Below, piece after piece: positions 1 through 22,490 of a stretch of 64,000 nucleotides of DNA. The first letter of the stretch is position 1. Each line of letters opens with the position of its first letter. Below the pieces are notes generated by a model. The model worked only from the letters and a program-made list of their open reading frames with translations, had not been told where the DNA came from and did no database searches. Made by a program: the position numbers and the translations under genes. The stretch lies in assembly GCF_013215345.1 (NCBI RefSeq), contig NZ_JABSOV010000013.1, positions 1 to 64,000 on the forward strand. The letters run 5' to 3'. The stretch is from Colwellia sp. Its GTDB lineage: Bacteria > Pseudomonadota > Gammaproteobacteria > Enterobacterales > Alteromonadaceae.

Positions 1-342
<342 letters not shown>

Positions 343-16239: not shown

Positions 16240-16896
16240 ATGGCTTTATCAAGAGAACAAATCGCCCAGCGTGTTGCCCAAGAGCTAAAAGATGGTTATT
16301 ACGTCAACCTAGGCATAGGTATACCGCCCTTAGTAGCAAACTTTATCCCTGATGATATTGAAGTGATGTTGCAATCAGAAAACGGCTTACTGGGCATGGG
16401 ACAGTTTCCAACGGAAGATGAAATTGATGCCGACTTAATCAATGCCGGCAAACAAACCGTAACTATGGCCGCCGGTGCTTCTATTTTTGACTCTGCAGAA
16501 TCTTTTGCCATGATACGTGGCGGTCATGTCGATTTAACCGTACTAGGCGCTTTTGAGGTAGATGTTAATGGCAATATCGCTTCCTATATGATCCCGGGTA
16601 AATTAATCAAAGGCATGGGCGGAGCCATGGACTTAGTTGCGGGTGCAGATAATATCATTGTCACTATGACCCACGCTTCTAAACACGGCGTATCAAAGTT
16701 ACTGAGTAACTGCACTCTGCCGCTAACAGGTAAAGGCTGTATTAAAAAAGTATTAACTGATTTAGCCTTTATTGAAATTAGGGATGGTAAGTTTCATTTG
16801 CTTGAACGAGCCCCGGGTGTATCAGTAGAAGAAATAATTAAGTTAACAGATGGTGAACTTGTTGTTAGCGGTGAGATAGCAGAAATGAAATTATAA
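16240..16896 (+). CDS. 3-oxoacid CoA-transferase subunit B
   Basis: YYVNLGIGIPPLVANFIP; QSENGLLGMGQFP; GAMDLVAGADNIIVTMTHASKHG. Confidence 0.93.
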   Translation: MALSREQIAQRVAQELKDGYYVNLGIGIPPLVANFIPDDIEVMLQSENGLLGMGQFPTEDEIDADLINAGKQTVTMAAGASIFDSAESFAMIRGGHVDLTVLGAFEVDVNGNIASYMIPGKLIKGMGGAMDLVAGADNIIVTMTHASKHGVSKLLSNCTLPLTGKGCIKKVLTDLAFIEIRDGKFHLLERAPGVSVEEIIKLTDGELVVSGEIAEMKL

Positions 16897-16977
16897 TTCA
16901 GTACAATTTTGTAACCAAAGAATAAAGTCCACTTTGTACGATTATAAGTACGAAGTGAATTTTCAGTTAAACTCATA

Positions 16978-17009
16978 AAGGCAATAGTTATCAATCTGTT
17001 GCCTTTTTC
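16978..17009 (+). terminator. Intrinsic terminator after the CoA-transferase operon
   Basis: AAAGGCAA-loop-TTGCCTTTTTC. Confidence 0.65.
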
Positions 17010-17089
17010 GTTACCTACCGTACATAGCATAAAACCTTAACTACCTAGCAGTAATAGTCGCTAAAATCTAGCCACTCGGCCCATTTAAC

Positions 17090-17118
17090 TTGCACTTTGG
17101 TTACAATTACGTGATAAT
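17090..17118 (+). promoter_or_regulatory. Sigma-70-type promoter upstream of the riboswitch
   Basis: TTGCAC-17 bp-GATAAT, ending just upstream of the aptamer. Confidence 0.5.
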
Positions 17119-17129
17119 TAATTTTGACA

Positions 17130-17226
17130 AAGAAAAGGCAAAACACGCGAAAACGTGTTACGCAAAACCACCGGTCTAAGGACATATTTGCTTTATAGCA
17201 AGTTAATCTATGACAGCGGAGTCACC
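17130..17226 (+). ncRNA. Cyclic di-GMP-I (GEMM-I) riboswitch aptamer
   Basis: Contains the GEMM consensus in order: aaaaGGCAAA-[P2 AACACG CGAAAA CGUGUU]-ACGCAAAaCCACCGGUCUAAGG-[variable stem UUUGCUUUAUAGCAAG]-UAUGACAGCGGaGUCACC. Confidence 0.88.
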
Positions 17227-17242
17227 TCGTTAACAGGTACAT

Positions 17243-17260
17243 CCCGTGGTTTTTTCTTTT
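17243..17260 (+). terminator. Riboswitch expression platform: U-rich terminator 3' arm complementary to the aptamer
   Basis: CCCGTGGTTTTTTCTTTT; CCCGTGGTTTT (17243-17253) pairs with AAAACCACCGG (17164-17174) at 10/11 positions. Confidence 0.6.
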
Positions 17261-17288
17261 ATTAACTCAATTAATTAAGGTTTATAAA

Positions 17289-17648
17289 ATGAAAAAATTA
17301 TTAATAGCTTCAACCATCACTGTTTTAACATTAGCGTCTGCTGTAACAACACCAACGGCACAAGCTGCGGACATTGCGACAAGTTTATGTCAGTACGTAG
17401 CATCCGATGACAAGAAACGCATGCGTTCATTTTTAAAGACGAATAAATTAAAGATTCGTCGTATCTTCAACGGTATTCAGTGTAATGGTAAAAACTTATT
17501 AGAGTTTGCATCGACTTCAGGATCAGTAAAAACAGGCTCTTTGATGATTTCAAAATTACCAAAGAAAGTTGTTTCGGCTAACCTAACATTCCTTCAAACT
17601 GGATCGCAACCATTGATAGACGCTGCCAACGCTCGCGTTAGCAGTTAA
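17289..17648 (+). CDS. Small secreted protein, DUF3718-like
   Basis: Signal peptide [28 protein letters not shown] followed by LCQYVASDDKKRMRSFLKTNKLKIRRIFNGIQCNGKNLLEFA. Confidence 0.75.
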   Translation: MKKLLIASTITVLTLASAVTTPTAQAADIATSLCQYVASDDKKRMRSFLKTNKLKIRRIFNGIQCNGKNLLEFASTSGSVKTGSLMISKLPKKVVSANLTFLQTGSQPLIDAANARVSS

Positions 17649-17734
17649 AATTATTTTAAAGTAGACGTTAATACCTTTTAGCAATAAAAACGGATGAGTA
17701 AAAGCAATACTATTTAATAATTCTATGTCATTTA

Positions 17735-17762
17735 AAAAGCCAGCTTAGCTGGCTTTTTTTTG
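17735..17762 (+). terminator. Intrinsic terminator
   Basis: AAAAAGCCAGCTTAGCTGGCTTTTTTTT. Confidence 0.9.
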
Positions 17763-17907
17763 CTCTAAGATAAAGTCAGTCCTTCTATAATATTGTTGAT
17801 ATTCCCTAGCGAAGTAAATAAAAAGCACTTACACTTAATAGCAAGTTGGTTAAGCAATAACTGTTGTGCAAGTAGTTAAAAATTATAACAAAAATAACTG
17901 ATTCTCT

Positions 17908-21572: not shown

Positions 21573-22490
21573 ATGCAAACACTAAACGTACTTGATAATA
21601 GATTCTCACCGTTCAATACCTATAGTACATTGAGAACTGATGCGCATGTTGCTGGAACTTTTACTAATACTGTTTTCGATAAGCGTCAGATCTTAGCCTT
21701 TATGACGCAATTACAAACCACACTCGATATAGATAAGCTATTAAATATTTTTGCGGTAGAAGCGGCACGCTACGTTGATTTTTCTGGGCTTTACTTTAAA
21801 AGCCAGAGCGTTAACAAGACGTTACCTGGTAGCAGAAAAGCAAAAAAAGAACGTCGTTTTGATTTGACAATTACCGATGATTTTATAGGTACCCTTAGTT
21901 ACGGCATCAATAGCCCTATCAGTTTAACTAACTATAAAGTTTTACAACAACTGCACTTATGTTTATTACACCCGCTTAGAAATGCCATTGCTTACCATGC
22001 GGCTATGCAACTTGCCATGCAAGATGCATTAACAGGGCTAGGAAATCGCCGTTATTTTGATGAGCAATTAAAGCGTTCTATGCATAATGCTAATCGCCAT
22101 CATAGTTTGGTGGGTTTAGTCTTAGGTGACTTAGATAAATTTAAAGCGATTAATGATGCTTATGGCCATGTAACTGGCGATTTAGTGTTGCGAGAATTTG
22201 CCAATGTGCTGCGCCAGTGTACTCGAAACTCAGACAGTATATTTAGATTTGGTGGCGATGAATTTGCCATTATCGTCGAGAATGCTGACGAGACTGCTTT
22301 AGCCATAATTGAAAATAGAATAAATTTAGCATTAACAACGAACGTATTGTTAAGTAAATACCAACTAGGTTGCAGTATAGGTACTACTTTTATGAATAGA
22401 GTTGATAATGAAATGAGTTTCTTTGAACGCGCAGATGAAATTTTATACCGCAGTAAAATGCAAGCGGCTGCGCACTTAAGCGTGGTATAG
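21573..22490 (+). CDS. GGDEF-domain diguanylate cyclase
   Basis: DALTGLGNRRYFDEQL, RFGGDEFAIIVENAD; RNSD five residues before GGDEF fits an I-site RxxD. Confidence 0.94.
   Translation: MQTLNVLDNRFSPFNTYSTLRTDAHVAGTFTNTVFDKRQILAFMTQLQTTLDIDKLLNIFAVEAARYVDFSGLYFKSQSVNKTLPGSRKAKKERRFDLTITDDFIGTLSYGINSPISLTNYKVLQQLHLCLLHPLRNAIAYHAAMQLAMQDALTGLGNRRYFDEQLKRSMHNANRHHSLVGLVLGDLDKFKAINDAYGHVTGDLVLREFANVLRQCTRNSDSIFRFGGDEFAIIVENADETALAIIENRINLALTTNVLLSKYQLGCSIGTTFMNRVDNEMSFFERADEILYRSKMQAAAHLSVV

Follow-up and report, generated by a model that had tools for sequence, protein, structure and literature searches.

A GEMM-I riboswitch predicted to turn on a DUF3718 gene through a terminator that shares a strand with its own aptamer in Colwellia and relatives

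Upstream of a DUF3718 gene, the window, by which we mean the whole 64,000-nt stretch of Colwellia sp. DNA analysed here, carries a c-di-GMP-I (GEMM-I) aptamer, one strand of which is complementary to a downstream arm that runs into a U-tract. This arrangement is probably a transcriptional ON riboswitch, in which c-di-GMP, a signal for sessile life, prevents a terminator from forming and thereby turns the DUF3718 gene on. The riboswitch class and the ON mechanism are already known and this is not a new kind of regulator; the target gene and the family-restricted expression platform are new. The counts below refer to 55 distinct modules sharing the window's platform (type A), and the features of the locus are the following.

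17090-17118 (+), sigma-70-type promoter TTGCAC-17-GATAAT, read from the sequence and conserved in the modules
17126-17137 (+), A-rich 5' leader GACAAAGAAAAG, near-invariant in the 55 modules and part of the predicted OFF fold
17142-17159 (+), P2 stem-loop with GAAA tetraloop, from the Rfam alignment, its pairs kept through two-sided changes
17164-17174 (+), switching strand AAAACCACCGG, conserved and complementary to 17243-17253
17218-17244 (+), predicted OFF-state inner hairpin GGAGU(C)ACCU...AGGUAC(A)UCC, from the minimum-free-energy fold of 17164-17256
17243-17259 (+), predicted terminator arm CCCGUGG plus U-tract UUUUUUCUUU, pairing with 17164-17171
17277-17280 (+), Shine-Dalgarno sequence AAGG, read from the sequence, 8 nt before the start codon and outside all switch helices
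17289-17648 (+), DUF3718 protein of 119 aa, PF12514 E 4.1e-18
17734-17758 (+), intrinsic terminator after the DUF3718 gene, 11-bp stem plus T-run

The initial annotation had placed a GEMM-I aptamer at 17130-17260 and suggested a covariance-model search as a check; this search, which we ran, confirms the assignment, since 17127-17229 (+) matches Rfam RF01051 over the full model (1-87 of 87) at 58.1 bits (E 9.2e-9), above the gathering cut-off of 35 bits. When the whole genome from which the window comes (257 contigs) is searched, the same aptamer is recovered together with two other GEMM-I aptamers on different contigs. Both P2, with its GAAA tetraloop, and the P3 stem are present; P2 shows compensatory changes and the upper pairs of P3 are kept in 55/55 modules. 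The ligand-site residues are conserved across modules, namely G17138, A17165 and C17225, which we take, by our own alignment to the Vc2 sequence, to be the equivalents of G20, A47 and C92 in Vc2. In Vc2, these three residues contact the ligand according to PMC4744006, whose P2/P3 scheme is also the basis for our naming of the switching strand. A G20A variant of GEMM-I binds 3',3'-cGAMP (PMC6274999), and a cGAMP-specific variant was considered, but the position-20 equivalent here is G, not A, which speaks for c-di-GMP as the ligand. We infer that the window aptamer binds c-di-GMP.

With the GEMM-I class as a whole (RF01051), the window's aptamer shares the full-length aptamer match, the ligand-site residues and the position in a 5' UTR. 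Its P3, in contrast, has an unusual mismatch, the basal pair 17169:17220 being an unpaired C.A in 54/55 type A modules, whereas 77 of 84 further GEMM-I aptamers from the family form a standard pair at the equivalent position; this comparison set was extracted automatically and has a few shifted rows. Both C17169 and A17220 find partners in the OFF fold. The window's platform also differs from the rest of the class in being limited to its family in the samples searched.

The promoter proposed earlier just upstream of the aptamer has its two elements at 17090-17095 (TTGCAC) and 17113-17118 (GATAAT), 17 nt apart, and is conserved: 52/55 homologous modules have a promoter of the form TTG-N3 / 15-19 nt / NATANT, 49 of them with a spacer of exactly 17 nt. 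A generic scan does not list TTGCAC-17-GATAAT. The predicted transcription start, at about 17125-17127, coincides exactly with the conserved 5' boundary of the aptamer. The protein starting at 17289, first described as DUF3718-like, proves to be a true DUF3718 protein (PF12514, 65.8 bits against a Pfam gathering value of 22.5). Given the strong terminator at 17734-17758, the switch most likely controls the DUF3718 gene alone, and the transcript looks monocistronic; the upstream neighbour is a CoA-transferase gene that ends at 16896. Elsewhere in the window, a diguanylate cyclase (GGDEF, DgcS-like) is encoded at 21573-22490, some 4 kb beyond the riboswitch gene, and is a possible local source of c-di-GMP. 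At 1-342 (-) lies the 5' part of a gene for 16S rRNA, which runs off the window edge.

The switching strand AAAACCACCGG (17164-17174) and CCCGUGGUUUU (17243-17253) pair at 10/11 positions, as the initial annotation had reported, the sole exception being C17172/C17245. In the bound state this strand would be the 5' side of aptamer P3, and in the free state the 5' side of the terminator. The further claim that aptamer and terminator exclude each other is borne out computationally, in that both folds draw on 17164-17171 and 17224-17226 and the pairing is conserved. More specifically, the 93 nt of 17164-17256 fold as a three-way junction at -23.6 kcal/mol (z -2.7; 2 of 200 shuffles are as stable), closed by AAAACCAC (17164-17171) and GUGGUUUU (17246-17253), with the upper part of P3 retained inside. 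The inner hairpin of this junction keeps its core pairs in 47-55 of the 55 modules and its loop-closing pair in 31/55, and it sequesters the ACC at 17224-17226, including the C92 equivalent C17225. At the 5' end, AAAGAA of the leader (17129-17134) is complementary to UUCUUU of the U-tract (17254-17259), each pair being kept in 53-55 of the 55 modules. The leader probably pairs with the U-tract in the OFF fold, which would explain the near-invariant C within the U-tract.

As proposed here, the terminator consists of a long-range junction with U6CU4 behind it. Its closing helix spans about 70 nt, with only 3 G-C among its 8 pairs, of which the last two outer ones (GG:CC) face competition from the inner hairpin. 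For the window sequence, a global alternative fold lies 0.4 kcal/mol below the OFF fold computed with the eight-pair helix enforced. In the absence of ligand, the OFF fold lies below the aptamer fold in 53/55 modules, by a mean of 3.9 kcal/mol in nearest-neighbour energies, which take no account of the aptamer's tertiary contacts or of the co-transcriptional order of folding. A gap of about 4 kcal/mol could plausibly be surmounted by ligand binding.

We propose the following mechanism. Without ligand, AAAACCAC would leave the base of P3 and pair with GUGGUUUU, a second hairpin (17218-17244) would take the ACC that otherwise touches the ligand, the A-rich leader would pair with the remaining U-tract, and RNA polymerase would stop within the U-run, around 17250-17259. 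Once c-di-GMP is bound, both captured strands would be held by P3 and the ligand site and the terminator would be blocked, so that at high c-di-GMP read-through would give a single-gene DUF3718 message and, from it, a small exported protein. The ON direction is inferred from the mutual exclusion of terminator and bound aptamer, no competing local terminator having been found. A bolder version, which we put forward tentatively and consider possible rather than probable, holds that the terminator of the OFF state is of a non-canonical kind, in which one continuous 3' strand GUGGUUUUUUCUUU pairs with both the P3 strand and the leader at the far 5' end, so that the U-tract folds back onto the start of the transcript and two of the three ligand contacts are buried. 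It further holds that c-di-GMP riboswitch control of exported DUF3718 proteins makes up a widespread, hitherto undescribed regulon of this marine family, wired by at least two different expression platforms.

A standard terminator scan of 16900-17900 reports nothing on the + strand from 17160 to 17289, and at the platform it finds no canonical intrinsic terminator, by which we mean a compact G+C-rich hairpin with a T-run behind it. We therefore describe the system as an antitermination-like switch and do not class it as having a canonical terminator. A local hairpin at 17215-17256 as the sole terminator was rejected, as its fold is no better than shuffles (z -0.36). These results leave some room for a c-di-GMP-I riboswitch acting after transcription or through Rho, by message stability, Rho-dependent termination or translation, in which the U-rich stretch would not be an intrinsic terminator. 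In the same direction point the absence of a simple hairpin beside the U-run, the near-invariant C that breaks the U-tract and is able to pair with the leader, and the sister modules (type B, below) that have no long U-run. Nevertheless, the U-run directly follows the conserved GUGG arm, and the Shine-Dalgarno sequence and start codon lie 18-30 nt past it, outside the switch helices. We regard this alternative as unlikely, and it keeps what probability it has because the standard scan sees no terminator; a simple hairpin scan would, however, miss an OFF terminator that is a three-way junction, as in the transcriptional ON switch that we prefer.

The opposite polarity, with bound c-di-GMP favouring termination, has precedent within the class, Cd1 of C. 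difficile being described as such an OFF switch (cited in PMC4744006). Here, by contrast, the sole terminator-like fold uses the aptamer's own strands, and no separate terminator hairpin was found for the bound aptamer to release, which makes an OFF switch very improbable.

Judged from the window sequence alone, the 10/11 complementarity is only moderately unlikely by chance. When the downstream 59 nt are dinucleotide-shuffled, an 11-mer with no more than one mismatch to this segment turns up in 55 of 20,000 shuffles, and one with no more than one mismatch to any 11-mer of the aptamer in 72 of 2,000; the weight therefore rests on the comparative data. Searching GTDB genomes with the protein gave 27 relatives (Colwellia, Litorilituus, Cognaticolwellia, Thalassotalea and MAGs), and the same aptamer and platform are present at 26/27 orthologous loci, the exception being the most distant relative (53% identity). 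Of 150 genomes surveyed in the family, 93 have GEMM-I and 144 have DUF3718, and a DUF3718 reading frame lies at most 1 kb downstream of 60 of 151 GEMM-I loci, these being the best-scoring matches of the survey with the window included. With a few DUF3718 genes per genome, we estimate the chance expectation for such adjacency at well under one. The whole module is present in about 13 genera of the survey, and among 395 genomes of the order the exact type A pattern occurs in 6, all of them in this family. That the aptamer is a degenerate relic, its complementarity arising by chance from sequence rich in A and in U, would fit the moderate rarity in shuffles and is hardly credible against an RF01051 score well above cut-off, a module kept across these loci and genera, and a conserved promoter and ligand site.

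The terminator arm is complementary to the aptamer strand in 55/55 type A modules, and each of the eight pairs between 17164-17171 and 17246-17253 is kept in 54-55 of them, while the P3 loop and the spacers vary freely. The changes within this helix are four A-U to G-U, one C-G to U-G and one A.C, in addition to one compensatory change in L132, where both sides of an A-U have become U-A, and one A.G, found in L108, a module that recovers pairing through a bulged register, AAAACC[A]CCGG with CCGGGGUUUU. Covariation support for the eight-pair helix is thus thin, comprising one double change and a few wobbles, because the pairs vary so little; the argument rests instead on the retention of GUGG in the arm, for which the aptamer has no need. 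In one genome, two complete type A modules (L183 and L161, at G085:C1:35798 and 36757) stand in tandem about 960 bp apart.

Among known systems, the GEMM-I RNA Bc2, which precedes cap in Bacillus thuringiensis, has been shown by experiment to be an ON switch acting by antitermination (PMC4933901). The window's module shares with Bc2 the ON direction by antitermination, here predicted, and a single surface or exported protein as target. Bc2, in contrast, comes from another phylum, has another target and is described with an intrinsic terminator, unlike the long-range junction closed by an aptamer strand proposed for the window. Vc1 of Vibrio cholerae, also a gammaproteobacterial GEMM-I, lies upstream of gbpA and raises expression of this secreted protein upon c-di-GMP, a positive effect that matches the direction proposed here; no U-tract arm pairing with P3 is described for Vc1 in the available text of PMC4744006.

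The DUF3718 product has a signal-peptide-like N terminus and two Cys conserved in the alignment, and is predicted to be a small exported protein. Its structure model is a compact helical fold (pLDDT 83.6), for which nearly all of the closest solved structures found by Foldseek are ankyrin repeats or designed ankyrins (E 0.2-1, TM about 0.5); the resemblance to an ankyrin-like helical fold is suggestive only. A sequence search of solved structures gave nothing significant, the best matches being engineered or designed repeat proteins (E 0.1-0.7). Literature searches on DUF3718 and on GEMM in Colwellia found no paper, and the link between c-di-GMP and DUF3718, coupled in two ways, is apparently undescribed in the literature searched. 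The modules connect an uncharacterised family of putatively exported proteins with c-di-GMP in marine Colwellia and relatives.

The second way of coupling is found in type B, a group of 22 GEMM-I/DUF3718 modules (e.g. L112, L106, L148, L102, L190 and L142) that share with the window module the aptamer class and the downstream protein family. They differ from it in having a leader, AGAAACGG, whose complement is CCGUUUC(U) further downstream, and in lacking both P3-strand pairing and a long U-run. Tested against its own downstream region, the P3 5' strand scores 22.7±1.0 in type A and 13.8 in type B, and type A strands score 12.4 against type B regions. Since the type B and swapped-region scores are much lower, the self-pairing of the P3 strand is specific to type A. 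The two paralogous types offer a natural comparison of one aptamer class coupled to different expression platforms.

Another GEMM-I group (L001, L008, L010, L018, L020, L021 and others), represented in the window's own genome at G000:C184:15603-15685, has conserved downstream GUGGGGGCUUAUCU and CUUUGCGUGC. In this group, CUUUGCG is complementary to CGCAAAG of the aptamer, in some members CUUAUC/CUUGUC is the complement of the leader GAUAAG/GACAAG, and several have a reading frame of about 330 aa (MKYHDSI...) a few hundred nt downstream. The third GEMM-I aptamer of the genome (L002, G000:C209:534-619) lies upstream of a lipoprotein-like frame with GTPDTG/GTPDIG tandem repeats.
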